This document shows, in pieces, positions 1 to 51,725 of a stretch of DNA of 51,725 nucleotides. Below the pieces are notes generated by a model that was given only the letters and a program-made list of their open reading frames with translations, did no database searches and was not told where the DNA came from. The stretch's first letter is position 1; each line of letters opens with the position of its first letter. A program made the translations under genes and the position numbers. The DNA comes from Desulfolutivibrio sulfodismutans DSM 3696 (GTDB taxonomy: Bacteria; Desulfobacterota; Desulfovibrionia; Desulfovibrionales; Desulfovibrionaceae), in contig NZ_CP045505.1 of the NCBI RefSeq assembly GCF_013376455.1, positions 1-51,725 on the forward strand. Direction: 5' to 3'.

Positions 1-537
1 GTGCCCAATTCCATCCGGTGCATGGAATGGGAGGTGCGCTCCTATTCCAGCATCGACAGCGTGCTTGGGTTTTCGCGGCTTTTGCAAAATGACAAGGACA
101 TCGGCAAATACGATTTCGTGATCATCGACACCCCGCCCAACATCGGGCCCATGCTGCGCAACGCTTTACTCATCTCCCATTCCGTGCTGGTCCCCTGCCC
201 CGTGGGGGATCAATACGCCCTGGACGGTTTTTCCACCTTCATCCAGGTGCTGGCCCAGGCCAAGCAGCAAAACAAGGCCCTTATCCTTCTGGGCGTGGTG
301 TTGACCAAGATGGACGGCCGGGCCGTGACCCATAAAAAGAACAAGAGCCGCATCCGGGCCTTTTTCGACGCCAAGGGCATTCCGGTTTTCGACACCGAGA
401 TCCGGGTCAACATCGATATCGACCGGGCCCATTCCCATCGCAAGACCATTTTTGAATTCGACGCCACCAAATCCGGAGCACAGGACTACCTTGCCTTGGC
501 CAAAGAGGTCATTGAGCATGTCCAGCAAAAAGACTAG
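1..537 (+). CDS. parA: ParA partition ATPase, C-terminal part (continues from 51462-51725)
   Basis: This is the C-terminal two-thirds of a ParA/Soj/MinD-type ATPase. Position 1 is a codon boundary, and joining it to the 88 codons at 51462-51725 gives one uninterrupted 266-residue protein, the usual length for Soj-like ParA. The segment holds the Walker A' / switch motif VIIDTPPNIG (Asp about residue 131 of the joined protein) and the typical C-terminal ParA pattern in which a DNA-binding arginine region precedes a SKGAxxYxxLAKEV-like helix. The apparent GTG at position 1 is therefore an internal valine, not a start. The next gene begins inside its last 20 bases, so the two are translationally coupled. 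The protein has no N-terminal HTH, so it is the small ParA type. No ParB was recognised; the downstream gene may be its partner. Confidence 0.95.
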   Translation: MPNSIRCMEWEVRSYSSIDSVLGFSRLLQNDKDIGKYDFVIIDTPPNIGPMLRNALLISHSVLVPCPVGDQYALDGFSTFIQVLAQAKQQNKALILLGVVLTKMDGRAVTHKKNKSRIRAFFDAKGIPVFDTEIRVNIDIDRAHSHRKTIFEFDATKSGAQDYLALAKEVIEHVQQKD

Positions 538-2149
538 TCCGACTCCGGACGATCTTTTTCGCAGCATTCCCCCGGCGGAAGAGTTCCACGCCTTTCCAGC
601 CCTGGACGCCTTTCCGGCCGAGGCCATCGCCTTTTTGACGGGTCGTCGGGCCACGCCTGCCTCCCCCCCGGCCGCCACGGCGGCGCAACCCGACGCCGCG
701 TCCCCTTTTTCCGCCCAACCGGAGCAAATCCCGTCCCTGGCCGTTCCGGAACCCCCCCCTCTCTCTAAGCCACACTTTAGACCACTCAGCCAGCCTCTCA
801 ACCGGTCAACAGGCCAGTCAAAAGGCCACTCAGCCAACCGGAAGGCCACCCGCACAGCCAGCCAGAAGGCCAGCCACTCAACCAGCCACACTAAATACCT
901 GTCTCAAGGCCATTCTCAAGACCAAACTTCAAACCACACAAAAGACCAGACACCAGACCACTCACAAAACCGCACACAAGACCTCTCTCCGGCCGATCCG
1001 GGGCAAGGGGCGCGCCGCCCGATTCCTGCCGCCCCCGAAAGGGCTGCGCAGGACGCCGGGGGGCCCCCGGATCCGGCCGCAACCTTTTCCCCGGCCACGG
1101 CGGATGAGTCCGCCCCAGCGGTCCCGGGCCGCGCCCCCCAGGCGCAAACGCCGTTGCTTCCGGCCTTTTCCCAATCCCTGGCCGACCCCGGCCCGGCCGC
1201 CAGGCTCAACGCCAACCAGCGCCGGGTATTGCTTTTTCTCTTAAGCGCCCGCCCCTACATCATCACCTTTTCCCAGATCGCCGCGGCCACGGGCATGGGC
1301 GAGGCCAGCGCCCGGACCATCCTGCGCCGCCTGGCCGTCCTGGATTTTCTGACCTTTAAAAAGGCCCGCGACGGCAACCTGCAGGGCGTGCGCATGGCCT
1401 TCAACCAGGAACTGTGTCAGGCCTTCCGGCAGGCCCTGGAGCACGGTCCTGAAAGCCAGACACTCAGCTACTCTCAAAGCCCATCACTAAGCCTTTCTTT
1501 GAACCACTCACTAAAACATTCTATAAACCAGAATCTCAGCCAGCCAATCACTAGGCCAGACTCTCAGCCAGCCACACTGTCGCCCCTCTTTCAGAAGGAA
1601 GGAAAAGAATCTATCCTTCCAGGGGAAGCGTCTGAAAAAGACAGGCCCTGGTTTGACGACTGGAGCGATGAATTTTTGGCCTTTTTATGGCCGAAAACGT
1701 ATGGCGTGGGATTTCGCATGGACCACGTGCGCCGGGCGGCGGCCACGCGCCAGACCCTGGGCAGGCCCCTGGAGCGCGACTTGGTGCGCGTAAGCCTGGA
1801 CCGCTGCGAATGGGAGATCGAAAATCTGGGCGATCTCAACGACTTAAAATCCGGCGAAAAGGTGCGCAATCCCCAGGCCTATCTGTTTATGGCCCTGTCG
1901 AAGTGGGGGATTTTGCGGCCGCATCCGGACTACGTGTCCCGGGAAGAGGAGCTGGCCAGGGAGGCGGCCCAGGAGCTTTCGTCCCGCCAGGAAGCGGCCC
2001 GCCAGATGGAGGACGCTCAGTTCGCCGCCTGGCGCGACGGCCTCGACGCCGACGCGCTGACGGAGGTTCTGCGCGGCTTTCCGGGCGGACCTCGCGATGT
2101 CTGGGTAAAAAATTACTGGAAAAAACATGTCTGCGCCGCACAAAAGTGA
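518..2149 (+). CDS. Probable plasmid replication initiator (winged helix) with embedded iteron-like repeats
   Basis: A 543-aa protein whose ATG lies inside the end of parA, so it is probably co-translated. An earlier in-frame start at 452 is less likely. The only recognisable fold is a winged helix-turn-helix at about residues 229-305 (pattern QRRVLLFLLSARP ... SQIAAATGMGEASARTILRRL). It is followed by a low-complexity stretch and a conserved-looking C-terminal domain (about residues 375-543) rich in Trp and Arg. Two low-complexity segments (about 83-157 and 313-354) are tetrapeptide repeats rich in Ser, Gln, His, Asn and Thr, and they reflect 12-bp repeats in the DNA. Position next to parA, the wHTH and the internal repeats suggest a Rep protein with its origin inside its own gene, as known for RepA_N plasmids. 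I cannot assign it to a named family. A DNA-binding partition adaptor is the alternative. Confidence 0.6.
   Translation: MSSKKTSPTPDDLFRSIPPAEEFHAFPALDAFPAEAIAFLTGRRATPASPPAATAAQPDAASPFSAQPEQIPSLAVPEPPPLSKPHFRPLSQPLNRSTGQSKGHSANRKATRTASQKASHSTSHTKYLSQGHSQDQTSNHTKDQTPDHSQNRTQDLSPADPGQGARRPIPAAPERAAQDAGGPPDPAATFSPATADESAPAVPGRAPQAQTPLLPAFSQSLADPGPAARLNANQRRVLLFLLSARPYIITFSQIAAATGMGEASARTILRRLAVLDFLTFKKARDGNLQGVRMAFNQELCQAFRQALEHGPESQTLSYSQSPSLSLSLNHSLKHSINQNLSQPITRPDSQPATLSPLFQKEGKESILPGEASEKDRPWFDDWSDEFLAFLWPKTYGVGFRMDHVRRAAATRQTLGRPLERDLVRVSLDRCEWEIENLGDLNDLKSGEKVRNPQAYLFMALSKWGILRPHPDYVSREEELAREAAQELSSRQEAARQMEDAQFAAWRDGLDADALTEVLRGFPGGPRDVWVKNYWKKHVCAAQK
766..990. repeat. Array 1 of 12-bp iteron-like direct repeats inside the rep gene
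   Basis: About 18 tandem degenerate 12-mers run without spacers. Typical units are GACCACTCACAA, GACCAAACTTCA, AACCACACAAAA and GGCCATTCTCAA, giving a consensus of roughly RRCCANNCNCAA. The period of 12 equals four codons and produces a repeating [DNGK][HQR][ST][QKP] peptide. The RRCCA core is kept even where the residues change, which fits selection on DNA rather than on protein. This is probably an initiator-binding array. Confidence 0.7.
1454..1580. repeat. Array 2 of 12-bp iteron-like direct repeats inside the rep gene
   Basis: About ten further 12-mers of the same family (for example ACCACTCACTAA, GCCCATCACTAA, ACCAGAATCTCA) lie on the far side of the segment encoding the winged helix. 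Shared consensus and shared period with array 1 point to a two-cluster origin structure. Confidence 0.65.
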
Positions 2150-2508: not shown

Positions 2509-2923
2509 CCCGGACGCGTTTTCAGCGGGCCAGCAGGGGCGCGGGAAGGGAGCCGGGCGGGACTGCCGCTGCTTTGGCGCAGCTTTGCCGCCGGTCTGCC
2601 GCGGGTTGTCCGGGCAGGTTGCCGAAGCGGGCCGGGATCGAGGCGTTGGCGGCCGTCGGCCCGTGGGGGATCGGCGCGGGAGTGATTGTTCGGCAGGAAG
2701 CATTGCGCTGGACCTGGACGGTGCAGGCGACAATGGCGACAAGGGCGGCGTCAATGGCGGCGGCGATGGCGGGGCGGTCGGGGAGAGCGATGCCGGGGGG
2801 AGATATGGCGGGACATGGGGAAAAAATCCTGATGCGGCGGGCGCACGCCCGCCCAGACGGGGCGGACAGGCCAGGCGGGCCAGGCGGGCCAGGCGGGGTG
2901 GACAGGGCGGACGGGGCGCGCCG
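2509..2923. other. GC-rich gap upstream of nadE with short repeats and a stem-loop
   Basis: No convincing gene. The stretch is very GC-rich and purine-skewed in its second half. It holds a perfect 8-bp inverted repeat with a 2-nt loop (GGCGGGCG-CA-CGCCCGCC, 2836-2853) and directly after it three tandem copies of GGCCAGGCG-like units (2868-2897). The nadE reading frame stays open through the whole gap, but the translation is low complexity and is not nadE-like. Confidence 0.5.
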
Positions 2924-4798
2924 GTGAGCGGGTTGCGCCTGGCCCTGTGCCAGCTCAATCCCACCGTGGGCGACATCGCGGGCAACGTGGGGCGGATGGC
3001 CGCCTTTCTCGACGCGGCCCGCGTGGCCGGGGCCGCCCTGGCGATTTTTCCGGAGATGTGCGTCACGGGCTATCCCCCGGAGGATCTGCTCCTGTCGCCG
3101 CGGTTTATGGACGCGGCCAGGGGCGGGGTGGAACGCTTTGTCCGGGCCAGCCGGGGGATGACGGTGATTTTCGGCGCGCCCCTGTGTGCGGGCGAGGCCA
3201 GAAACGCGGCTATCGTGGCCCATGACGGACGCCTTACGGCCACGTATTTCAAGCAGCTTTTGCCCAATTACGGGGTGTTCGACGAGATGCGCTATTTCAC
3301 CCCGGGGACTCGCGACCTGATCGTGTCGCTGCCGCTTTTTCAAACCGGGGTGAGCATCTGCGAGGACATCTGGTATCCGGACGGCCCGGCCTCCCGGGAG
3401 GCGGCGGCCGGGGCCACCCTTTTGGTCAATATCTCGGCCTCGCCGTACCACCGGGACAAGGGCGCGGCCCGGGAGCGCATGTTGTCCGTGCGGGCCTCGG
3501 ACTGCCGGTCCTTTGTGGCCTATGGCAACCTGTGCGGCGGGCAGGACGAACTGGTGTTCGACGGGCAAAGCCTGGTGTTCGCCCCGGACGGCGAGCTTTT
3601 GGCCCGTGGCGCGGCCTTTGCCGAAGACCTGATTGTGGCCGATCTGGACCCGGTCCAGGCCACCCGGGTGAGGCTTACGGACCCGCGCGGCCGGGTGCGC
3701 CCGCAGGCGGCCAGGGCAGGGGGAGAAAGGGGCCCAGAGGGAACGGAAGTGGTCGATCTTGGCGCGACCTTGTCCGAACCTTGCCTAAACCTTGACATGG
3801 ATTCGTCCGCCAATCATGCCACGACCGTGGCCGTGGCCGTGGCCGTGCCGCCGCCGCGCCGGATTCCGGCCCTTCCCTTGTCGCCGTGCGCCGAGGTCTA
3901 TGCCGCCCTGGTCACGGGGCTTCGCGACTACGTCCGCAAAAGCGGCTTTTCCGGGGTGCTCATCGGCCTGTCCGGGGGCATCGACTCCAGCCTGACGGCC
4001 GCCCTGGCCGCGGACGCCCTGTCTCCGGCCCAGGTCATGGGCGTGGCCATGCCCACGCGCTACTCCTCGGACCACAGCCTTGAGGACGCCAGGGCCCTGG
4101 CCGAAAATCTGGGCCTGGACTTCCGGATCATCCCCGTGGACGGCATTTTTCAATCCTTTCTGGACGCCCTGGCCGGGCCCTTTGCCGGGCGCGCCCCGGA
4201 CGTCACGGAAGAGAACCTGCAATCGCGGGCCCGGGGCACGCTGCTGATGGCCCTGTCCAACAAGTTCGGCCGCCTGGTGGTGACCACGGGCAACAAGAGC
4301 GAGACGGCCGTGGGCTACAGCACGCTTTACGGCGACACGGCGGGCGGGTTTGCGGTCATCAAGGACGTGCCCAAGACCCTGGTCTACGCCCTGGCCCGCT
4401 GGCGCAACGCCCTGCCCGGGGAAGGCGGGGAGGGCGGGGAAAGCCGGGCCGCCCTGGGATTTCTCGGACCCTGCGGCCGGGCGGCCATTCCGCCCCGGGT
4501 GCTGGTCAAGCCGCCCTCGGCGGAGCTGGCCCCGGGACAGGTGGACGCCGACTCCCTGCCGCCCTACGAGGTGCTTGACGCCATTGTGGCCGATTATGTG
4601 GAGCGGGGCATAAGCCTGCCGGAGATGATCGCCCGGGGCGGCCAGCCCGACGCCTGCGCCCGGGTGGTGGGGCTGGTGGAGAAAAGCGAATACAAACGGC
4701 GGCAAAGCCCGCCCGGGGTGAAGATCACCCCCCGGGCCTTCGGCAAGGACTGGCGTCTGCCCCTGGCCGGACGTTTTACGGGCGGCTTCCAGGGCTGA
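2924..4798 (+). CDS. nadE: Glutamine-dependent NAD+ synthetase
   Basis: A 624-aa two-domain enzyme that makes NAD+ from deamido-NAD+, ATP and glutamine. The N-terminal nitrilase-type glutaminase domain (about 1-270) shows the Glu-Lys-Cys triad: E44 in FPEMCVTGYP, K110 in YFKQLLPNYG and C146 in GVSICEDIW. The C-terminal NAD synthase domain has the PP-loop SGGIDSS at about 348-354, and later PSAELAPGQVD and a KITPRAFGKDWRLP tail. A GTG start at 2924 is chosen because the protein then begins LRLALCQLNPTVGD, the standard NadE N-terminus. It is longer than most two-domain enzymes because of a low-complexity linker (about 265-315) and a Gly/Glu-rich insert near residue 500. A complete biosynthetic nadE on a plasmid is unusual; it could be redundant with a chromosomal copy. 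Confidence 0.95.
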   Translation: MSGLRLALCQLNPTVGDIAGNVGRMAAFLDAARVAGAALAIFPEMCVTGYPPEDLLLSPRFMDAARGGVERFVRASRGMTVIFGAPLCAGEARNAAIVAHDGRLTATYFKQLLPNYGVFDEMRYFTPGTRDLIVSLPLFQTGVSICEDIWYPDGPASREAAAGATLLVNISASPYHRDKGAARERMLSVRASDCRSFVAYGNLCGGQDELVFDGQSLVFAPDGELLARGAAFAEDLIVADLDPVQATRVRLTDPRGRVRPQAARAGGERGPEGTEVVDLGATLSEPCLNLDMDSSANHATTVAVAVAVPPPRRIPALPLSPCAEVYAALVTGLRDYVRKSGFSGVLIGLSGGIDSSLTAALAADALSPAQVMGVAMPTRYSSDHSLEDARALAENLGLDFRIIPVDGIFQSFLDALAGPFAGRAPDVTEENLQSRARGTLLMALSNKFGRLVVTTGNKSETAVGYSTLYGDTAGGFAVIKDVPKTLVYALARWRNALPGEGGEGGESRAALGFLGPCGRAAIPPRVLVKPPSAELAPGQVDADSLPPYEVLDAIVADYVERGISLPEMIARGGQPDACARVVGLVEKSEYKRRQSPPGVKITPRAFGKDWRLPLAGRFTGGFQG

Positions 4799-20026: not shown

Positions 20027-23000
20027 TTAACTTTGATGAGGACTTCCTTGGCGGGCTTCCAGTCTCCCGTGGCGTATATAGTGTATAAGAGGACAAATGT
20101 TCCCATTTGCAACGTCAGGATACTTTAGGAGATACCACTTCGGATTAAACTCCGGACATGGGCTATGCATCTCTTCTTGCCCATATTTCAAATAGTACAT
20201 TAACGGCGGCATATTGTAGTCTGTCGATTCAGGATATGTTTTTGCGTACCATTTGCTGTTGAAAAATGGCCCCGGATCATATCCGCACGCCATGCCAATA
20301 TGCACAAAATGCACAAGTGCGGGTAAGTTTGATTCGGAAGACACCTTGTATTTGGCTTCATACCATGTGGCATCAAACAGTGGATGAGGCTGTAGGCCTT
20401 GTTGAACGCCATGCGTAAAATAATGGGCGAGAGGATTTAGCTTGGACGCTCCGACTTCGGCATATGTCTGTCGATACCATGAGACGGAAAACAACGGGTG
20501 AGGGTCGCGAGTCTTTGCGTTGTTTCCTTGTAAATAGTGCGCGAAGGGATTGCATCCCTGCAACATGACTTCAAGGTTTGCTTGCAGATAGGCGGTAGTG
20601 GAGAACAGTGGGCATGGATCCAGGCCGAGGCTGGCGCCTTGCGTTACATAATGTTCGATGGAATCCATCCCTTCAGAGAGCAAATCGGCGTAACGCTTCT
20701 CATACCACTCAACATCGAAGAGGCCAGAACACTTTATGATTTTTATTTCGGTTTGGGGATATTTTTTTTCAGATCTGCGCGTCGAGAAGAACGTCGATTT
20801 TTTCTTGGCCATAGCCGCTCGGGATTTCTCAAAAGAGGTGAGAATTTTCTTTCGCTCTCTTCCTTCCTGCCGCATCAAGGATAGACGAATTCGCTCAACA
20901 ACGTTCTGCTTTTCGGATATCATTTTCTGCAAAGAGGTAATCTTCTCGCTGTGCTGAAGCAGCAACGCCTGATTTTTTGTGAGATCACCCTGCAACTGGG
21001 ACAGCGTTTCCTCATATTGCATATCCGACTGACTCAAAGCCGCCTGATATTCGCTCGCCAGCTCCGATGATGCCTGCACCTGCGCCTTGAAATCCTGAAT
21101 CTGCGCCGCGGAATCCTGTGCCGTATGGCGTAGCGTATTCGCCTCCGCCGTGGCATCACTCAGGGCGGTTTCCAGCCGCTCTCGCTCGCGCGCGGCCGTC
21201 AGCAACCGCCCTTCCAGTTCCTGAATCCTGGCGGCGGCTGCGCCTGCGGCCGTCTGGGCGTTCTCCTGGACAGCGGACATCTCGCTGGCGGCCGTCAGCA
21301 ACCGCCCTTCCAGTTCCTGAATCCTGGCGGCGGCTGCGCCTGCGGCCGTCTGGGCGTTCTCCTGGACAGCGGACATCTCGCTGGCGGCCGTCAGCAACCG
21401 CCCTTCCAGTTCCTGAATCCTGGCGGCGGCTGCGCCTGCGGCCGTCTGGGCGTTCTCCTGGACAGCGGACATCTCGCTGGCGGCCGTCAGCAACCGCCCT
21501 TCCAGTTCCTGAATCCTGGCGGCGGCTGCGCCTGCGGCCGTCTGGGCGTTCTCCTGGACAGCGGACATCTCGCTGGCGGCCGTCAGCAACCGCCCTTCCA
21601 GTTCCTGAATCCTGGCGGCGGCTGCGCCTGCGGCCGTCTGGGCGTTCTCCTGGACAGCGGACATCTCGCTGGCGGCCGTCAGCAACCGCCCTTCCAGTTC
21701 CTGAATCCTGGCGGCGGCTGCGCCTGCGGCCGTCTGGGCGTTCTCCTGGACAGCGGACATCTCGCTGGCGGCCGTCAGCAACCGCCCCTCCAGTTCCTGA
21801 ATCCTGGCGGCGGCTGCGCCTGCGGCCGTCTGGGCGTTCTCCTGGACAGCGGACATCTCGCTGGCGGCCGTCAGCAACCGCCCTTCCAGTTCCTGAATCC
21901 TGGCGGCGGCTGCGCCTGCGGCCGTCTGGGCGTTCTCCTGGACAGCGGACATCTCGTGCGCGGCCGTCAGCAACTGCATTTCCAGTTCCTGAATCCTGGC
22001 GGCGGCTTCGCTTGCGGCCGTCAGCAACTGCCCTTCCAGTTCCTGAATCCTGGCGGCGGCTGCGCCTGCGGCCGTCTGGGCGTTCTCCTGGACAGCGGAC
22101 AACCGGGCCAGGGTTTCGGCCAACGCCTGCTCGCGCACGGCCCAGATCTTCCTGAGAGGCTCCTGATTGGTCTGCACCTTGATCCAAATCCGCAATTCCA
22201 AGGGGGAATCCGCCTGTGCCAGCGGAGGCAGATAGATCTGGGGATCACAATCAAAGGACCATATCGTGAAATGTTTCTGGTCAGGGATGACGACGGCATG
22301 CCCCCCGGCCCTGATCTGCTTGAAGTCTGCAGGATCGGCGAACCGGGCGAGCGTTTCGCGGGTGGACATGTTCAGAATCTGTATCTCGGAAATGAAAGCA
22401 ACCCCTTTGGTGTTGAGGGGATCGATACGCAGGCCATGCTGAGCAAGGCCCTCCGGATTGTTGATGACGCAGGTCAACTCCTGCCAGCCTTCCTGATCGA
22501 GCAAAAAAGTTTCAGAAAATTGATCGGCGTAGGTTTCACCCTGGGCGCTAGGGAAGAAGACTACGGCAAACAAGGTGCTGCCGACGGCGGTAGAGGTGAG
22601 GACGCGGCGTTCTCGCGCCATCCGCTGGCTCAGCCATTCCCGTTCCTGAAGGCCAATGTGTTCGAAGAGACGGTCAAAAAGTTGCGGAGCGGTCGCGCGA
22701 AGATACTCCCTGTTGGGCAAGTCCGGTTGTTCATCCTTGTTCGAGACTGCGGGCTCCGTAATGAGCAGCAAGGGGGAAAGACTCTCTTGTCCGTTTTCAG
22801 GAACGGCCTCACCGTCCGGACTTATCGGAATCTGTGGTTTGGCGATGTTCTGGTCGGCGGCGAGGCAGCGAATATTCTCATACAGTGCCGAAAAATATGA
22901 AGAGGTTCCCTCACCGGGATATTTCCTGGGTGACCGGTGTTCATGCTTGAGGTCGGTACTGACGAAGGACAGAATCGCCGGAATGTTGTCCTGTAACGAT

Positions 23001-23617
23001 TTTGGATAGTTGATGCCGAGTTTTTTTTCGATGGTATCCAGGGTGGCAAGGGGATCGCCCAGCAACTGATCGTATGTAATCACCACATGCGGCCGCGCCC
23101 TACAGGCTGCGAAGGTCTCCCGGTTATAGGCGAACCACAACAGCAGCCCCTTGCGGATGTCCATCGTGTCGCGTTTGGCCAGGGAGGCGGCCACCTCATC
23201 AGGGTGGCGCACAATGACGATCAGGCCGGGCTTTTCATTCCGTTGCTCCAACACCTCCGCCCACAGCGGAAACAGCATGGACAGGCGGGGATCCTTGACC
23301 GCCCAAAGCTTGTCCGTCCGGAAGGTGCGATCGAGAAAGGATTTCAGGCGTTGTTTGGCCTTTTGTCCAGCTGCCGACTCCAGCCAGTCTGCCGGCAGCG
23401 ATCCGACCATGTCCCACGAGCAACCCAGTTGACGCAGGAGAACCTCATGAATCGTCATCAGGTTTTCATTTTCCCAATAGCCGATTTCGTTTCGAGCATT
23501 CGCGGGCATCATGTCTGTGCCCAACTCGATTCCGAGAATATGGAGGCACCCGGCCAGGACGGAGGTGCCGCTGCGGTGCATGCCAAGGACCATCAGCGGA
23601 TTAACCTGGGTAAGCAT
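20027..23617 (-). CDS. Giant sulfotransferase-type protein with coiled-coil repeats and C-terminal WY repeats
   Basis: About 1,196 aa in three parts. The N-terminus (about 5-240) is a PAPS-type sulfotransferase: 5'-phosphosulfate loop LGMHRSGTSVLAG and 3'-phosphate segment IVIVRHPDEVAASL. The middle is a long coiled coil dominated by nine copies of a 32-residue unit (SAVQENAQTAAGAAAARIQ...), then a Ser/Lys-rich stretch. The C-terminal 230 residues hold about six repeats of the form FxxxWYxxxYxxV...NPLxHYxxxGxxxGxxPxPLF, known from glycan-assembly proteins. ATG 23617 (after AGGGA) is preferred over 23671 because the fold starts right after it. It is probably a large scaffold-linked enzyme of surface glycan sulfation. 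Acceptor unknown. Confidence 0.75.
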   Translation of the reverse strand: MLTQVNPLMVLGMHRSGTSVLAGCLHILGIELGTDMMPANARNEIGYWENENLMTIHEVLLRQLGCSWDMVGSLPADWLESAAGQKAKQRLKSFLDRTFRTDKLWAVKDPRLSMLFPLWAEVLEQRNEKPGLIVIVRHPDEVAASLAKRDTMDIRKGLLLWFAYNRETFAACRARPHVVITYDQLLGDPLATLDTIEKKLGINYPKSLQDNIPAILSFVSTDLKHEHRSPRKYPGEGTSSYFSALYENIRCLAADQNIAKPQIPISPDGEAVPENGQESLSPLLLITEPAVSNKDEQPDLPNREYLRATAPQLFDRLFEHIGLQEREWLSQRMARERRVLTSTAVGSTLFAVVFFPSAQGETYADQFSETFLLDQEGWQELTCVINNPEGLAQHGLRIDPLNTKGVAFISEIQILNMSTRETLARFADPADFKQIRAGGHAVVIPDQKHFTIWSFDCDPQIYLPPLAQADSPLELRIWIKVQTNQEPLRKIWAVREQALAETLARLSAVQENAQTAAGAAAARIQELEGQLLTAASEAAARIQELEMQLLTAAHEMSAVQENAQTAAGAAAARIQELEGRLLTAASEMSAVQENAQTAAGAAAARIQELEGRLLTAASEMSAVQENAQTAAGAAAARIQELEGRLLTAASEMSAVQENAQTAAGAAAARIQELEGRLLTAASEMSAVQENAQTAAGAAAARIQELEGRLLTAASEMSAVQENAQTAAGAAAARIQELEGRLLTAASEMSAVQENAQTAAGAAAARIQELEGRLLTAASEMSAVQENAQTAAGAAAARIQELEGRLLTAARERERLETALSDATAEANTLRHTAQDSAAQIQDFKAQVQASSELASEYQAALSQSDMQYEETLSQLQGDLTKNQALLLQHSEKITSLQKMISEKQNVVERIRLSLMRQEGRERKKILTSFEKSRAAMAKKKSTFFSTRRSEKKYPQTEIKIIKCSGLFDVEWYEKRYADLLSEGMDSIEHYVTQGASLGLDPCPLFSTTAYLQANLEVMLQGCNPFAHYLQGNNAKTRDPHPLFSVSWYRQTYAEVGASKLNPLAHYFTHGVQQGLQPHPLFDATWYEAKYKVSSESNLPALVHFVHIGMACGYDPGPFFNSKWYAKTYPESTDYNMPPLMYYLKYGQEEMHSPCPEFNPKWYLLKYPDVANGNICPLIHYIRHGRLEARQGSPHQS
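21196..22112. repeat. Coding tandem repeat, 96-bp unit, nine copies
   Basis: The unit encodes 32 residues of coiled coil. The eight central copies are almost identical at DNA level; one differs by a single base (CGCCCCTCC for CGCCCTTCC near 21786). Two diverged units lie at the high-coordinate end (21958-22112), one of them shortened. The near-identity indicates recent expansion or ongoing homogenisation, and copy number is likely to vary. Confidence 0.9.
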
Positions 23618-23649
23618 GGAAGTCCCTATGTGATGCGGGTTAAGGTTCC

Positions 23650-23990
23650 CGACTTTCGGTGTCGGCTTCAAGAGCGCGGCGCACCATGGACGCGAAAAGG
23701 GCCGTGGATTTGGTCACGGCTACCCGGCGGCGCGTGGCCCTGCAAGACCGCCGGTCCAGATTCTTGGTGACGCCCGGGGAGCGGTTGCAGGGGGCGGTGG
23801 AAGAAAGAGCGGCGAAGCCCAGAGGAACCGGATTGGCGCCGACCGACCAGGCCAGGGGTCAGCATACGGAAGCCCCTGAGAAAGCGATTCGCGCCGTGGC
23901 CGGAGAGTTGACGAAAAGTTCCACTCTCCTGGCCCTGGGGCGATGGATGGAGGTGTCGTCCAGGATACGCACGGGTTCGCGATCATCTCG
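23650..23990 (-). pseudogene. IS4-type transposase fragment
   Basis: Read across frames, the minus strand gives REPVRILDDTS, then RARRVEL, then a GANPVPLGFAALSST segment, then NLDRRSCRATRRRVAVTKST. This matches the order seen in DDE transposases of the IS4 group (DDT ... LGWSDG..F.P..F.LLSS ... IDKRT...RR.EA..K). Several frameshifts and a stop are present, and both ends of the gene are missing. Confidence 0.55.
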
Positions 23991-46292: not shown

Positions 46293-46850
46293 CTACTTTC
46301 CGGCGGCCCGACGCCTGCGGCCCTTGTCCTCCAGGCGGCAGGACGGCCCCGACGCCGCCTGCGGCCCCAGATATTTGACGAACACCTCGCCCGTGTGGCT
46401 GAAAAAGACCAGCTTGCGGCCCCTGTCTCCGCCCACATGGGACGCCGTCACCCGCAGCCGATGCCGGGCCAGGGCCTCATAGGCCGCCAGCACGTTTTTC
46501 TGCCCCACCCCGGCCTCTCCCTGGAACAGCGCCCCGGCCCCGCCGAACACCTTGCATTCCACCTCGGACAAATCCACCCCGCGCCGCGACAGGGCGCCGG
46601 CCAGCGCATCCACGGCCGCATCCACGTATCGGAACCGGTTTCCCGGGAGCAACACCTTTTCATAGTCCGCGCTGCGGGGCAAAAGGGCGTGGAAAATGCC
46701 CCCGAAACCGCAGTCGCGGGAGAAAAAGGCCACGGAGACGCACGAGCCGAGCACCGTCTGGACCATGGTCGGGCGTTCGAACACCCCGCCCTGGGCCACC
46801 AGAAGATACACGGAATCCAGATCAGGATAGAGATTTACGAGTTCGCGCAT
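46293..46850 (-). CDS. cheD: CheD-type chemoreceptor glutamine deamidase
   Basis: A 185-aa protein with the CheD core: catalytic cysteine C37 in TVLGSCVSV, histidine H54 in GIFHALLP, VECKVFGGAG and GQKNVLAAYEAL. CheD deamidates glutamines on chemoreceptors and can be regulated by CheC/CheY. No receptor and no CheC are on the replicon. It overlaps the end of the response regulator gene by 16 bases, so the cheA-cheY-cheD run is one unit. Confidence 0.9.
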   Translation of the reverse strand: MRELVNLYPDLDSVYLLVAQGGVFERPTMVQTVLGSCVSVAFFSRDCGFGGIFHALLPRSADYEKVLLPGNRFRYVDAAVDALAGALSRRGVDLSEVECKVFGGAGALFQGEAGVGQKNVLAAYEALARHRLRVTASHVGGDRGRKLVFFSHTGEVFVKYLGPQAASGPSCRLEDKGRRRRAAGK

Positions 46851-47266
46851 GGCTCGTCGGCGTCAAGAGGGTTTTTGGCGAACTCCAGGGCGCGCAAGGC
46901 CGCCAACATGTCCGCCGGATCAAACGGCTTGGTCAGGTAGGCCCCCGCCCCTTCCTCGAACTGGGCCTGCATCATGTTTTGCGCATCATCCAGGCTGGAC
47001 AGCATGATGACCCGGGTGGGGCGCACGACGCCCGCCTGCTCCTCCATGCGCCGCATCCAGGCCAGGGCCCGGTGCCCGTCCATGGCGGGCATGAGGATGT
47101 CCATGACCACCAGATCGTAGGGCTCCCCCCGGTGCAGGGCCTGCTGGAACAGCCGCACGGCCTCGGCCCCGTCCTCGGCCTGTTCGCAACGTCCCACGTC
47201 CGCCAGGGCCTTTTCCACCAGATGGCGCTGATAGCGACTGTCGTCCACGATGAGTATGCGCGGCAT
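46835..47266 (-). CDS. CheY-like response regulator
   Basis: A 143-aa single receiver domain. ATG 47266 is used because GGAGGA precedes it; an upstream in-frame start at 47284 is possible. Phosphorylation site D56 (VVMDILMPAMDG), acidic pair D8/D9 (LIVDDS), S90 in MLSS and K113 in LTKPF are all present. It lies 22 bases after cheA, which should be its kinase. No output domain is attached, so it acts by protein contact, as CheY does. Confidence 0.92.
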   Translation of the reverse strand: MPRILIVDDSRYQRHLVEKALADVGRCEQAEDGAEAVRLFQQALHRGEPYDLVVMDILMPAMDGHRALAWMRRMEEQAGVVRPTRVIMLSSLDDAQNMMQAQFEEGAGAYLTKPFDPADMLAALRALEFAKNPLDADEPCANS

Positions 47267-47288
47267 TTCGTCCTCCATCTGCACGCCG

Positions 47289-49064
47289 TCACGCCCCCGG
47301 ACGGCGTTTCTCCCCTGCGGGGGAAGCCAGGGCGGCCTGGGCCAGTCCGGGTACGTCCAGGACCAGGGCCATGAAACCTTCCTCCGTCACGGTGCCGCCC
47401 AAAATCCCCGCGACGTGGCCAAGGGCCGGGCCCAGATGCTTGAGCACGGCCTGCTTTTGGCCAAGCACCTCATCCACCAGGATGCAGAACCGCTCTCCCG
47501 CGGCCCGGACCACCACGGCATGGGCCGGGAGGTCCAGGTCGCACGGCGCCCCAGCAAGGGCGAAAAATTCCGCCAGACACAGCATGGGCGTGGGTTTGCC
47601 GCGCAGATCAAGCACCCGCCGGGTGGCGTCCGCCGCCTGCCGTCGCGGCACCTCCAGGCATTCCTCCACATAGTCCAGGTGGAAAAAAAAGGCCTGCCCC
47701 CCGGCCCGCACCTCCAGACAGTCGATGATGGCCAGGGACACGGGCAGCCGGATGGTGAAGACCGTCCCCCGGCCCGGTTCGCTGTCCACCCCGATGTCGC
47801 CGCGCAGGCTCTCGATGCCCTCCCGGGCCGCATCCATGCCCACGCCCCGACCGGACAACTCCCCCACGCCCGAGGCCGTGGACAGCCCCGGCACAAAGAT
47901 CAGCGACAGCTTCTCCTGCCGCGACAGGCTCCGTCCCGGGTCCGCCAGCCCCCGGGCCACGGCGTGCTCCCACAGGGCGTCGGCGTCGATGCCCGCCCCG
48001 TCGTCCGTGACCTCGATGACCACCTCGTTGCCGTCCTGCCGGGCGCTCAGGCTGATGCGTCCGCAGACGGGCTTACCCGCGGCCCGACGTTTTTCCGGGG
48101 TCTCGATGCCGTGGTCCACGGCGTTGCGCAACAGATGCAAAATGGGGGTGTTGAGCCGCTCGATCAGCGTCTTGTCCAGCTCCGTGTTTTCGCCGTCAAG
48201 GACAAGGGCGGCCTCCTTGCCCAGGGCCGCGCAGGCGTCGCGCACCAGACGGCGGTATTTCAGAAAACTGACCTGCAGCGGCAGCATGCGCAGCCCCAGG
48301 GCCTGATCCCGAAGCAGGGCGCACAGCCTGCCCGTCTCCTCGGCGACGGTCATGAAATCCCGGTCCCCCAGGCGTCTGGCCAGGCTTTCCAGGCGGGCCT
48401 GCACAATCCCCAGCTCCCCCACCCGGTCCACCAGGATGTCCAACTCCCCGGCCGGAATGGTGATGCTCTCGATGCGCTCCAAGGACTCGTCCCGTAAACG
48501 GCGGGGACGCGACCCCTCCCAGGCCGGGGGCGCGGCCTCAGGCCCCGGCCCGGCGGCGTCCTGGCCGGGGGCGTCTTCAGCAGCGGCGGACGGTTCCGGA
48601 GTCGCCGGGGACGCCGCCAGGGCCGTAAGCCGGGCCACCTCCCCGGCGGCCTCGGCCGTCGCCTCCCCGGCGTCTTCCAGCAGCTCGCGCACCCGGCGCA
48701 CCATGGACCGCACCACGTCAAAGGCCCGCAACAGCTCGCCGCCCAGGGCCACGTCCACGGGCCGCGACCCGTCGCGCACCTGGGCCAGCACGCTTTCCAC
48801 GGCGTGGCACAGTTCGGCCAGGGGGGCCGCGCCCATGGCCGCGGCATCGCCCTTGATGGTGTGGGCCGCCCGGAACACGGCCTCGACCTTGGCCCGGGAC
48901 TCCTGCGGCGCGGCCTTCTCCAGGTCCAGGACGGCGCTTTCAATGCCTGAAAGCTGCTCCAGGCAGCTTTCCACGAACATGTCGAAAATTTTTTCGTCCA
49001 CCTCTCCCCCGCGCCGCCCGTGATTCGTCTGGGGCCCCGGCGGACCTGGCCGCTTCTGGTCCAC
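47289..49064 (-). CDS. cheA: CheA-type histidine kinase
   Basis: A 591-aa kinase in CheA order: HPt domain with phospho-histidine H68 (RAAHTIKGDAAAMG), a variable linker (about 130-195, Ala/Pro-rich), the P3 dimerisation helices, the ATPase domain (HLLRNAVDHGIETPEKR, DDGAGIDADAL, GRGVGMDAAREGI) and a C-terminal CheW-like domain ending near 580. No separate P2 domain was recognised. It heads the cheA-cheY-cheD run. No MCP, CheW, CheR or CheB was seen on the replicon, so it must couple to chromosomal receptors or a different input. Confidence 0.94.
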   Translation of the reverse strand: MDQKRPGPPGPQTNHGRRGGEVDEKIFDMFVESCLEQLSGIESAVLDLEKAAPQESRAKVEAVFRAAHTIKGDAAAMGAAPLAELCHAVESVLAQVRDGSRPVDVALGGELLRAFDVVRSMVRRVRELLEDAGEATAEAAGEVARLTALAASPATPEPSAAAEDAPGQDAAGPGPEAAPPAWEGSRPRRLRDESLERIESITIPAGELDILVDRVGELGIVQARLESLARRLGDRDFMTVAEETGRLCALLRDQALGLRMLPLQVSFLKYRRLVRDACAALGKEAALVLDGENTELDKTLIERLNTPILHLLRNAVDHGIETPEKRRAAGKPVCGRISLSARQDGNEVVIEVTDDGAGIDADALWEHAVARGLADPGRSLSRQEKLSLIFVPGLSTASGVGELSGRGVGMDAAREGIESLRGDIGVDSEPGRGTVFTIRLPVSLAIIDCLEVRAGGQAFFFHLDYVEECLEVPRRQAADATRRVLDLRGKPTPMLCLAEFFALAGAPCDLDLPAHAVVVRAAGERFCILVDEVLGQKQAVLKHLGPALGHVAGILGGTVTEEGFMALVLDVPGLAQAALASPAGEKRRPGA

Positions 49065-49357: not shown

Positions 49358-49951
49358 TTACGGTTGCTCCGCAGGACGCGCCCCGCCCCCCGGACCCTCT
49401 TTTTCCTCGCGAACATAGGCGTAGAGCGTGGGCTTGCTGATGTGAAACAGTCGGCATATCTCCGCCACCGGCACCCTGCGCTCCCGGTACAGCGCAACCG
49501 CCGCGGCCCGCCGGGCGGCGTCCAGCCGCTTGGGACGCCCCCCCAGGCGGCCCCTGGCCCGGGCGGCGGCCAGCCCGGCCATGGTCCGTTCCCGGATCAG
49601 CCCGCGTTCAAACTCGGCCAGGGCGGCAAAGACATGAAACACCAGCCGCCCCCCCGGAGAGGCCGTGTCGAGGGATTCCGTCAGGCTGACCAGGGCCGCC
49701 CCCCGGGCCTCGATCTCCCGGGCCAGGGCGATGAGATGCGACAGCGACCGGCCCAGGCGGTCCAACCGCCAGACCACCACCGCGTCATCCTGGCGCAGCA
49801 TGTCCATGAGCCGGGCAAGGCCCGGCCGGACAGCGGCCGCCCCGCCGCCGCTTTCCTCCACGATGCGCTGGCACCCGGCCGCGAGCAGGGCGTTTCGCTG
49901 CAAATCCAGATTCTGGTCCGCCGTCGACACCCGGGCGTATCCAATGCGCAT
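49358..49951 (-). CDS. Serine recombinase (resolvase/invertase family)
   Basis: A 197-aa recombinase starting MRIGYARVSTADQ with catalytic S9. It also shows VVWRLDRLGRSLSHL, the long E-helix (VFHVFAALAEFERGLIRERT) and a C-terminal HTH (RVPVAEICRLFHISKPTLYAYV). It is complete and typical of plasmid or transposon resolvases of the Hin/Tn3 type. Location next to the toxin-antitoxin pair and partition region suggests multimer resolution for the replicon. No IS ends were found around it. ATG 49951 is chosen because upstream codons lack homology. Confidence 0.92.
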   Translation of the reverse strand: MRIGYARVSTADQNLDLQRNALLAAGCQRIVEESGGGAAAVRPGLARLMDMLRQDDAVVVWRLDRLGRSLSHLIALAREIEARGAALVSLTESLDTASPGGRLVFHVFAALAEFERGLIRERTMAGLAAARARGRLGGRPKRLDAARRAAAVALYRERRVPVAEICRLFHISKPTLYAYVREEKEGPGGGARPAEQP

Positions 49952-50202
49952 GACCGGCCTCCCGGCAAAAAACCCGTGACCCAAGCGTGATTTTCTGCCT
50001 TTGATTTCCTGACGGCTTTTTTTCCCAAAAAAAGGGCGTTGCGGCAAGTCCCGGGGCGGCCGTCCGGCCAGGGCAGGAAAACGACCGTTTTCTTGCCTGT
50101 CCCGGCCTGCCGCAGCAGGCCGTTCTTGTGCCGCCCCCCCATCCGGTTCGGCGCTGCCGGGAAACCGCCCAACCTGAGGAGTCTTTCGCCTCTGCCCTCC
50201 TT

Positions 50203-50487
50203 ATGAAAACGACCATCAATGCCAGCGTAAAAATGCCCCCGGCGCTCCATGCCCGGATCGTGTCCCTTGCGGAAACCCGCAAACGGACACCGCACGCCCT
50301 CATGGTCCAGGCCATAGAGGCTTTTGTCCTTCGCGAAGAACAGCGGGAGGCCCTGCGCCAGGAAGCCATGGCCGCGCATGAGGATTTCTTGCTGACGGGT
50401 CTGCATGTGACGGCGAAAGAGGCGGACGCCTGGCTCGCCGAACTGGAAGCGGGCAAGGATGTGGAGCCGCCCAAATGCCACGTGTAG
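50203..50487 (+). CDS. ParD/CopG-type ribbon-helix-helix antitoxin
   Basis: A 94-aa protein with an N-terminal ribbon-helix-helix (TTINASVKMPPALHARIVSLA, KRTPHALMVQAIEAFV) and an extended C-terminal tail rich in acidic residues and Trp, as needed to wrap a toxin. ATG 50203 is preferred over an upstream in-frame start. It overlaps the toxin gene by 13 bases, the usual antitoxin-first order. It should bind its own promoter in the 50048-50202 gap. Confidence 0.85.
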   Translation: MKTTINASVKMPPALHARIVSLAETRKRTPHALMVQAIEAFVLREEQREALRQEAMAAHEDFLLTGLHVTAKEADAWLAELEAGKDVEPPKCHV

Positions 50488-50771
50488 AACTGGCGTGGAC
50501 GCCTTCTGCGCTCCGGGGAGTGCAGAGGGCCTACCGTTTCCTGGCCGAAAAGGACCGGGACGCGGCGAAGGCCGCAGCGGGGACCATCAGAAAGCAGGCC
50601 GCCCTTTTGCAAAAGTTTCCCGTCGCCGGGCGGCTGGTTGACGACTTGGACCCGGAACACCGGGAATTGCTCATTCCGTTCGGGGTGACCGGGTATGTGC
50701 TGGTCTACGAGGTTAGCGCCGAACGGATCCTCGTGCTGGCCGTGCGCCACCAAAAAAAAGCCGGATACTGA
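50475..50771 (+). CDS. RelE/ParE-type toxin
   Basis: A 98-aa protein of the RelE/ParE fold: an N-terminal VELAWTPSALRGVQRAYRFL helix pair, FPVAGRLVDDLDPEHRELLIPF, and a C-terminal VYEVSAERILVLAVRHQKK strand. This is closer to ParE (gyrase poison) than to ribosome-dependent RelE, but the target cannot be told. The overlap with the antitoxin gene confirms pairing. It stabilises the replicon by killing or slowing plasmid-free cells. Confidence 0.88.
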   Translation: MPRVELAWTPSALRGVQRAYRFLAEKDRDAAKAAAGTIRKQAALLQKFPVAGRLVDDLDPEHRELLIPFGVTGYVLVYEVSAERILVLAVRHQKKAGY

Positions 50772-50792
50772 CCTGCCGCCGCGGCGGGTCAG
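50768..50792. terminator. Stem-loop at the end of the toxin gene
   Basis: CTGACCTGCCGCCG pairs with CGGCGGGTCAG with one bulge, overlapping the toxin stop codon. A T-tract is lacking, so the terminator call is tentative. Confidence 0.35.
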
Positions 50793-51461
50793 GCCTTTGG
50801 CAGGAAACAGTTCCTCCTGGAGTTTCATCCGGAAGCGGGAACCGACACAAAGCAAGCGAAACGCGCCCGAACGCTGCACGGGCCGTTTGGCGAAAGCGCT
50901 TTCGGCCTTTGGAACCGCTGCGGTGCGGGCAAGGCGCAAAACACGCCCGTTGAGCGGCTTTTGGCGGGGCGCGGCCGGGTGGGACGTTTACGCCCCCAGC
51001 CCGCAAAAATTCCTGTCCCCGGTCTGATGACAACGAACGAAGCACTAACAATCAATGCCCCGGCCTGATGCGAACGCAGGGGACGCCCCCAAAGAAGGCC
51101 CCGGCCGCAAAAAGGGACATCCGCCGGGGGGTCGCCGTCCGTTTCGGTCGGCACAGTGCGAAATCGGACGGCCTGCGAATCTGGCCGGAAGAAAAATATT
51201 TATTTTCGGTATCAGCAAAAAAATGGCGGAGGCGAGACGGCCGCAAGCCGCCGGAAATGTTCGTTTTCCGGTTCCTGGGGCCCGGGGCGGGCCGGGATTG
51301 GGGGGCAAAGATCCGGATTGCGGCGGTTCTTTCCCTTTTTTCCGATTTGCGGCATATATTGTCGGCCCCAAACGGCGTCAGCAGGAACCACGAGTCCCCA
51401 GTTTGACAAATTTGCCCAAAGATGAAAATATGGAAAAAATCAAAATAAGGTGTCGGCAATC
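50772..51461. other. Intergenic control region upstream of parA
   Basis: About 690 bases without a convincing gene. The first half is GC-rich. Around 51186-51232 it turns AT-rich (AAAAATATTTATTTTCGG, AAAAAAATGG), which could serve as an unwinding element or a promoter. The last 60 bases hold the parA promoter. No ParB-type centromere repeats were spotted, though short ones could be missed. Confidence 0.5.
51403..51431 (+). promoter_or_regulatory. Candidate parA promoter
   Basis: TTGACA (51403-51408), a 17-base spacer, and AAATAT (51426-51431) form a sigma70-like promoter. The parA ATG is 30 bases downstream, with TAAGG as a weak ribosome binding site. Confidence 0.55.
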
Positions 51462-51725
51462 ATGGCCAAACCGTTGATCATCACCATTGGCAACAACAAG
51501 GGCGGCGTGGGCAAATCCACTACTTGCGTCAATCTTTCCGCTGGGATAGCCGCTCAGGGCTACCAGGTTCTGGTCATCGACGGCGACCCGCAATCCAACA
51601 CCACATCTACGCTTTTACCAGATTTTGGGTTGAGGGAAAATTACAGTCTGGTCAAGGCCTTGGAAGACCCCGAGGGGGCGTTTAGCCCCAATGCCTGTCC
51701 CACCCGCACGGAGCATCTGGAGATC
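51462..51725 (+). CDS. parA: ParA partition ATPase, N-terminal part (continues at 1-537)
   Basis: Exactly 88 codons of a ParA N-terminus, ending on a codon boundary at the last base. It has the deviant Walker A motif NNKGGVGKSTT (about 11-21), followed by VLVIDGDPQSNTTS. Its last residues (TRTEHLEI) join smoothly to VPNSIRCMEWE at position 1, matching the ParA pattern LxLxPxxxxLxxxE. With 1-537 it makes a full 266-residue ParA. Confidence 0.95.
   Translation, partial: MAKPLIITIGNNKGGVGKSTTCVNLSAGIAAQGYQVLVIDGDPQSNTTSTLLPDFGLRENYSLVKALEDPEGAFSPNACPTRTEHLEI

Follow-up and report, generated by a model that had tools for sequence, protein, structure and literature searches.

The 51,725-bp plasmid of Desulfolutivibrio sulfodismutans DSM 3696 (contig NZ_CP045505.1, analyzed in its entirety and referred to as the window) carries a gene at 518-2149 that probably encodes the plasmid's replication initiator and that appears to hold the origin of replication within its own coding sequence. 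On sequence comparison, two arrays of short direct repeats (iterons) lie in the codons of low-complexity linkers flanking a winged-helix segment, and their DNA is constrained across reading frames. Many homologues carry a repeat of their own that tracks the winged helix, and a coding hairpin is found in much of the family. The best explanation would be that these genes form a family of initiators, matching no named family, that is found on plasmids and integrative elements of Desulfovibrionales. The window gene is organized as follows.

518-2149, plus strand: proposed initiator gene of 543 amino acids, starting within the end of parA (from its translation and homologues).
518-765, plus strand: N-terminal segment ahead of array 1, the start of which may contact ParA (from the N-termini of 38 ParA-linked and 31 other family members).
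766-989, plus strand: coding iteron array 1, 16 copies of ARRCCAnnCW in three reading frames (motif search).
1187-1444, plus strand: winged-helix segment, amino acids 224-309 (AlphaFold2 mean predicted local distance difference test (pLDDT) 90.6; Foldseek matches).
1452-1575, plus strand: coding iteron array 2, 10 copies in two reading frames (motif search).
1597-1620, no strand assigned: coding inverted repeat GGAAGGA-N10-TCCTTCC, the window counterpart of the family hairpin, alone not above the synonymous null (P 0.12).
1658-2146, plus strand: conserved all-helical C-terminal domain, about amino acids 381-543 (AlphaFold2 model of 1604-2146, mean pLDDT 94.7).

A motif search of the window gene gave 36 sites with a score of at least 5, of which 26 lay in the two arrays and 10 were scattered. 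The arrays, which sit on both sides of the winged-helix segment, were found close to where the first-pass annotation of this DNA had placed them (766-990 and 1454-1580). Within them, 20 of the 24 steps measured 12 bp, and the remainder 16, 16, 20 and 32 bp. In the consensus ARRCCAnnCW, C5, C6 and C10 are present in about 91% of the copies, A7 in 76%, and R at positions 3 and 4 in more than 90%; position 8 is unconstrained, and the preference at position 12 is weak. For this reason, the "CAA" tail proposed earlier for the 12-bp unit was poorly supported. The copies start at codon position 0 in 4 cases, at position 1 in 17 and at position 2 in 5, and for this reason the encoded peptides vary (e.g., KGHSA, KASHS, QDQTS and SQPIT). 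The earlier description as a tetrapeptide repeat holds only in part, given the use of three frames and the differing peptides.

The copies were compared with synonymous-codon shuffles within the gene, which preserve both the protein and the codon usage. The motif score of the window gene was 332.8, against 231.3 +/- 19.8 (maximum 301.2) in 60 shuffles, none of which reached the observed value. A cruder test was weak for the window alone, the best 12-mer (up to 2 mismatches) having 7 copies against a shuffle mean of 5.0 and a maximum of 7. When the entire plasmid was scanned for the motif (score of at least 8), 31 of the 48 plus-strand matches fell within the arrays, and 500-bp bins holding at least 3 such matches occurred solely at 500-2000. 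On the minus strand there were 24 matches, and one bin (28500) held 3. The region upstream of parA at 50772-51461, which had been named as a possible rival location of the origin, was without an iteron-like array; the search, carried out over 50772-51725, found one 2-copy repeat and no inverted repeat.

The family set comprised 66 distinct genes, some of them partial, and 69 after the addition of three from named plasmids. Several are near-copies of each other (e.g., L007/L030, L022/L088 and L015/L144), so that family counts are not fully independent. In 33 of the 66 genes, the best 12-mer had at least 8 copies and was above all 30 synonymous shuffles, and the 60-shuffle motif-score test used for the window was passed by all 4 relatives tried. 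The refined motifs of the 33 strong genes vary between subfamilies. Their dominant steps are 12 bp (288) and 13 bp (148), with extra steps at 16-17 and 20-21 bp. Odd steps in the window and family arrays frequently exceed 12 or 13 bp by 4 or 8 bp, which resembles a slipping 4-bp sub-unit.

A 13-bp step changes the frame at each copy, and 17 of the 33 strong genes had at least 3 sites in every reading frame (sites were sought across the whole gene). The 29 sites of L024 were split 9/10/10 between the frames, the 27 of L049 9/9/9, and the 22 of L009 6/8/8; L040, with 12-bp steps plus a few odd ones, had 25 sites in frames 9/8/8. A repeat selected as a peptide, with the DNA similarity as a by-product, would suit the members that have nearly all copies in one frame (26 of 28 in L020, 22 of 23 in L037, 31 of 34 in L038), and for these it is the shuffle test alone that supports a DNA constraint. 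For the family, the use of three frames in 17 of the 33 members and the excess of copies over shuffles that preserve the protein make this explanation scarcely credible. The same two observations, together with the occupation of all three frames in the window, bear out the selection at the DNA level that the first-pass annotation had proposed. No homologue that kept the peptide and lost the 12-bp DNA core, of the kind named there as telling against the proposal, was found among the 11 genes tried. In L096, L097 and L101, the repeat is palindromic, of the type TGATnnnnATCA, and mostly in one frame; the plasmid members are of the direct-repeat type.

Used without refitting, the window motif exceeded each of 100 synonymous shuffles in all 6 close relatives tried (L005, L029, L006, L030, L050 and L079), narrowly so in L050 on the minus strand (13 vs 12). 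It did so in none of 5 members of other subfamilies, which carry other repeats. Those of the close relatives that were aligned showed 43-59% identity at the protein level. The comparison of the two arrays and the co-variation analysis below were based on the 33 strong genes plus two chosen by hand, the window gene and L142; of these 35 genes, 31 were usable in the former. When a motif was derived from the sequence 5' of the winged helix, it located the sites 3' of it at P <=0.05 in 23 of the 31 genes, and 22 of 31 genes had their own array-1 motif as the best of the 31 motifs for array 2. For the window alone, the prediction of array 2 from array 1 was weak (P 0.06, rank 7 of 31).

Among the 35 genes, motif similarity correlated with the identity of the winged helix at 0.42 and with that of the C-terminal domain at 0.175. 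The partial values were 0.40 for the winged helix, reached in 0 of 1000 permutations, and 0.105 for the C-terminal domain (P 0.118). Physical linkage of the arrays to the winged helix is part of this correlation, though array 2 also adjoins the C-terminal domain. Neutral slippage, by which tandem duplication would expand the low-complexity linkers and leave DNA repeats with no function, draws some support from the +4 and +8 bp steps, which suggest slippage as a mutational source, from the tolerance of linkers, and from the half of the genes that miss the copy criterion. We nevertheless regard it as improbable, because both blocks share one motif across the conserved winged-helix segment, with the gene's own motif best in most of the genes compared, because the window unit has some near-fixed and some free positions, because the window motif recurs in all close relatives tried at the protein divergence given above, and because the motif tracks the winged helix.

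Three pairs of genes share a plasmid or contig. The two winged helices of a pair share an identity of 0.09-0.16, and their motifs have a similarity of 0.42-0.54, close to the mean of 0.36 for unrelated pairs; in the pair L020 and L024, the C-terminal domain is 63% shared. The co-resident pairs look as the swapping of a specificity cassette would leave them.

Directly 3' of array 2, many members carry AGATAGATAGA, a loop and TCTATCTATCT, a putative hairpin that encodes KIDR..NLSIS. The hairpin was placed by pattern in 50 of the 69 genes (19 were skipped), where its score averaged 8.84 versus 5.65 in synonymous shuffles. P was <=0.05 in 28 of the 50 genes, and in 20 the score was never reached in 40 shuffles; a few hairpin-positive genes (L079) are palindromes of another kind. 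The arms co-vary, being GGAAGGA/TCCTTCC in the window, AGATAGAAAGA/TCTTTCTATCT in L022 and AGTAAGTAG/CTACTTACT in L017. Among 26 hairpins, selected by excluding 13 named genes by hand, dropping scores below 7 and merging identical arms, pairs 1, 2, 3, 6 and 7 from the loop were always complementary, with three pair types each, and the remaining six pairs were complementary in 19-23 of 26, a paired share that is partly due to this selection. The loop measured 1-16 bases. Co-varying arms and a variable loop are more in keeping with a hairpin than with a rigid two-fold site. When the hairpins of three relatives were folded, z ranged from -3.1 to -6.8.

The exact hairpin pattern was found 10 times in a set of 345 genomes, spread over 8 of them, each time inside a family gene by its coordinates. 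The reversed control gave 0 matches in the 345 genomes, and the host genome held no exact copy. Exact matches at 4 loci in viral contigs were rejected, each falling either between unrelated open reading frames (ORFs) or at the extreme end of one. In most G+C-rich plasmids the hairpin lies in an A+T-richer stretch (31% vs 60% G+C in plasmid p1, 48% vs 58% in the window); the A+T-rich plasmids pDMC2 and pDRET01 had no G+C dip at the hairpin.

Foldseek matched the winged helix to MarR/ArsR proteins, the N-terminal domain of DnaD, and the pNOB8 centromere-binding protein (4rs8). Its resemblance to MarR/ArsR would be in keeping with an autorepressor that binds the repeats solely for control of its own expression. 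Two blocks of sites in coding DNA, reaching to about 1 kb past the gene start, and the lack of a cluster ahead of parA are not what would be expected of such a regulator, which would also leave the conserved C-terminal domain without explanation, and we consider this role very unlikely. Searches of Pfam, NCBIfam and PHROGs gave no named family for the window protein, and the weak matches fell mostly on the winged helix. Among 22 members, weak phage-profile matches were DnaD-like in 5 and O-like in 5; those to the O-like phrog_345 were all weak (best E 0.0011; window E 0.065). The earlier view that the protein is not of the RepA_N type was upheld, RepA_N being absent from the Pfam list of the window protein at E <=1; it was also not among the 25 commonest of the 36 families matched by the 22-member set. 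Rep_3-type domains were absent from the Pfam list of the window protein, and the RepC family from its profile lists. The C-terminal domain had no match at E 0.001 among viral structures, and a search of PDB sequences with its profile gave nothing better than E 0.6.

Searches of 72,556 plasmids by tblastn found 5 plasmids with the window protein as query and 10 with a relative, all of them from Desulfovibrionales and including plasmids of Desulfovibrio (Nitratidesulfovibrio) vulgaris. The profile of the C-terminal domain matched 50 of 348 Desulfovibrionales genomes and 8 of 395 genomes drawn from the phylum, with the host genome included in both samples, and a named genome collection gave 11 loci of the family. 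In phage records, tblastn matched no relative of the window protein, and none of the 32 stretches of viral contigs that matched a pattern encoded one. No description of the family or of the replicon of these plasmids was present among the matches listed from the open-licence literature, in which a paper could be missed; an excerpt of PMC11142715 turned out to be unrelated. Public annotation truncates the gene: that of p1 (L029, 782-2170) gives a reverse-strand ORF and the C-terminal part alone, and that of pDMC1 (L030, 5001-6407) has a late start; the low-complexity arrays are perhaps the cause of both. In L143 (1124-4519), on plasmid pDEVAL01 of D. vulgaris RCH1, the linkers are enlarged and the protein exceeds 1100 residues.

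The parA gene of the window reads across the join of the contig ends (51462-51725 plus 1-537), giving 266 codons with a single terminal stop. This agrees with an earlier guess that the plasmid is circular.

51462-51725, plus strand: first part of parA, 88 codons, in a reading frame that crosses the join of the circular plasmid.
1-537, plus strand: second part of parA, encoding a ParA-type ATPase (phrog_164 ParA-like, E 2.9e-30; AAA_31, E 2.2e-13).

With four ParA queries and only the same strand considered, ParA was found directly upstream of 38 of the 69 family genes, which supports a family adjoining parA; at least 5 of the other 31 genes had almost no upstream sequence. The ParA-linked members commonly have a basic stretch at the N-terminus (e.g., KKRRSL or RRSIFDTL), and their first 20 residues carry a net charge of +2.08 on average, versus +0.68 in the others (P 0.0049). 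We treat contact with ParA as a lead, because 8 ParA-linked members have an N-terminal charge <=0, the window protein has +1, and the start codons were assigned by a rule.

The frequent position after ParA and the charged N-termini could also be explained by a partition adaptor, the main rival of an initiator. The protein would then be a ParB-like partner of ParA and the arrays in its gene a centromere, with replication starting elsewhere. The fold match to the pNOB8 protein points the same way, as do the winged-helix protein TubR, which according to an excerpt of PMC5016525 acts on direct-repeat blocks, and the presence of another annotated initiator on p1. However, members such as L054, L055, L057, L058, L092-L094 and L096-L100 have no ParA match within 1.7 kb upstream, and members of this kind retain the winged helix and the C-terminal domain. 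Of the four ParA-less settings examined, that of L058 contained an integrase, that of L055 a relaxase plus a phage-type regulator, that of L014 (L159) both an integrase and a relaxase, and that of L096 (L158) type IV secretion system genes plus a topoisomerase. L014 and L096 retain arrays in these integrative settings, which would speak for a role in replication independent of ParA; the surroundings of L097, L101 and L102 were outside this comparison.

The search for another initiator on the same replicons also argues against a partition adaptor. Of the 30 window ORFs scanned, a subset of those on the plasmid, none matched an initiator family and 4 had no match of any kind; the gene table of pDMC2, though incomplete, likewise names no initiator, but does list two DnaB-like helicase pieces. 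No initiator was found in the incomplete table of pDMC1 or among 9 scanned ORFs of the 21-kb contig G080:C3 either. Moreover, a further ParA gene is present on both pDRET01 and p1. On balance, we consider it unlikely that the protein acts in partition and leaves replication to another locus.

The unmasked GC-skew minimum fell inside the family gene in 8 of 13 replicons. Because the arrays are C-rich, the family genes were masked, and the proximity of the masked minimum to the family gene gave a combined P of 0.001 over 11 replicons; G713:C37 and G711:C59 were excluded from the 13 as near-copies of G080:C3, and draft, possibly incomplete contigs were included. GC skew modestly backs a predicted origin near the gene. 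The DnaA-box pattern with up to 1 mismatch was counted 112 times versus a shuffle expectation of 53.4, and these matches were located across the plasmid, mostly in its A+T-richer half, with few near the gene.

If the gene encodes an initiator, the winged helix would bind the copies as a direct-repeat array, and the two blocks with their flexible linkers would assemble an initiator-DNA complex. The hairpin segment past array 2 may be the site of strand opening or of the start of priming, and the helical C-terminal domain may recruit the host helicase or primase. Where parA lies upstream, the N-terminus may let ParA handle the same protein-DNA complex. Having its own repeat, each replicon would be able to coexist with others, as in plasmids with two copies bearing different repeats. 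A wider proposal, which we put forward tentatively and with some doubt, is that a single protein serves both as initiator and as ParA adaptor, with its coding sequence acting as gene, origin and centromere at once. The winged helix and arrays would be swapped as a specificity cassette while the host-facing C-terminal domain and the hairpin stay, and domain swapping would lead to new compatibility groups.

Several observations weigh against an initiator with an internal origin. The other 33 of the 66 genes, the window gene included, fail the criterion of at least 8 copies, and L012, L017, L076, L082 and L092 hold about the null number. The window hairpin is not significant either by the synonymous null (P 0.12) or by folding (z -0.33), and most family-bearing genomes are without the exact hairpin (8 of 345 genomes have it, vs 50 of 348 with the family). 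Plasmid p1, which bears a strong close relative, has a second annotated "replication initiation protein" and a second parA, and pDRET01 is typed as rep_cluster_1544 by PLSDB. The masked skew of pDMC1, p1 and G025:C3 does not fit, and the skew range of the window is not above block shuffles (P 0.246), as is the case in 9 of 13 replicons (P >0.05), while 4 of 13 exceed them at P 0.05. The C-terminal domain lacks a PDB fold match at E 0.001, and among viral structures it had no more than a faint match, at rank 2, to a "replisome organizer" (probability 0.23). Finally, the adjacency of parA and the match to a centromere-binding protein suit partition equally. The earlier interpretation therefore stands in part: DNA-level selection and a parA-adjacent family distinct from RepA_N were supported, and the roles of initiator and origin are inferred.

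The plasmid shares its genome with a chromosome of 4,388,462 bases. A NAD synthase gene is located near the proposed initiator gene on both the window plasmid (2312-4798) and p1 (2836-4725) and is possibly conserved cargo. Chemotaxis genes of the CheD and CheA types at 46293-49064 of the window have annotated counterparts on p1. The stretch at 49358-50771 contains genes for a serine recombinase and a ParE-type toxin, along with a small ORF that has no Pfam match; it likely serves plasmid resolution and addiction. At 21185-22022, a 96-bp unit is repeated 8.7 times with a 98% match, within a long ORF on the minus strand (20027-23671) that has a weak sulfotransferase match at its start.

The existence of a whole family with many differing, readable repeats makes the pairing of winged helix and DNA site amenable to study from sequence alone, and the arrays are a clear case of one DNA stretch constrained both by protein coding and by sites in three frames. 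If the assignment as initiator is true, it would name the replicon of plasmids whose initiator is listed as a "hypothetical protein", including the D. vulgaris plasmids, and it would be of use for vectors for sulfate reducers.

The principle of an origin inside the initiator gene is already known, since it has been described for lambda O, the rep gene of pSK41 and repC; the comparisons that follow draw on excerpts of the cited papers. The lambda O gene holds its own array of binding sites followed by a 40-bp A+T-rich stretch, and the sites are four 19-bp inverted repeats bound by O dimers (PMC5043065). The proposed initiator gene likewise contains a site array, followed in most G+C-rich plasmids by an A+T-richer stretch, but its repeats are direct and spaced by 12-13 bp, they form two blocks around a winged helix, a coding hairpin is present, and profile matches are weak. 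In the RepA_N plasmid pSK41, an N-terminal winged helix binds sites (four Rep boxes) within the rep gene, the origin DNA encodes a linker, and the C-terminal domain may be host-specific (PMC5703833). The predicted sites at 766-989 and 1452-1575 similarly lie in linker-coding DNA; unlike in pSK41, the winged helix lies centrally between the two arrays, the gene comes after parA, and a RepA_N domain is absent. In repABC plasmids, the initiator gene repC comes after parA-type genes and a separate repB, and the origin within it is an A+T-rich region (PMC3155836), whereas here the gene follows parA directly, repeats are the main feature, and the RepC family is not matched. The repC paper also mentions a construct carrying silent mutations. 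The combination of a winged helix with direct-repeat blocks is shared with TubR-tubC and pNOB8, to which the fold match to 4rs8 also relates; tubC, however, is upstream of its operon (PMC5016525), whereas the present arrays are coding and the family also occurs without ParA. What sets the present case apart is a family for which no named profile was found, with two arrays around a central winged helix, sites in three frames, many repeat types and a coding hairpin. The best explanation is that the gene works like lambda O, RepA_N and RepC while matching none of them in sequence.

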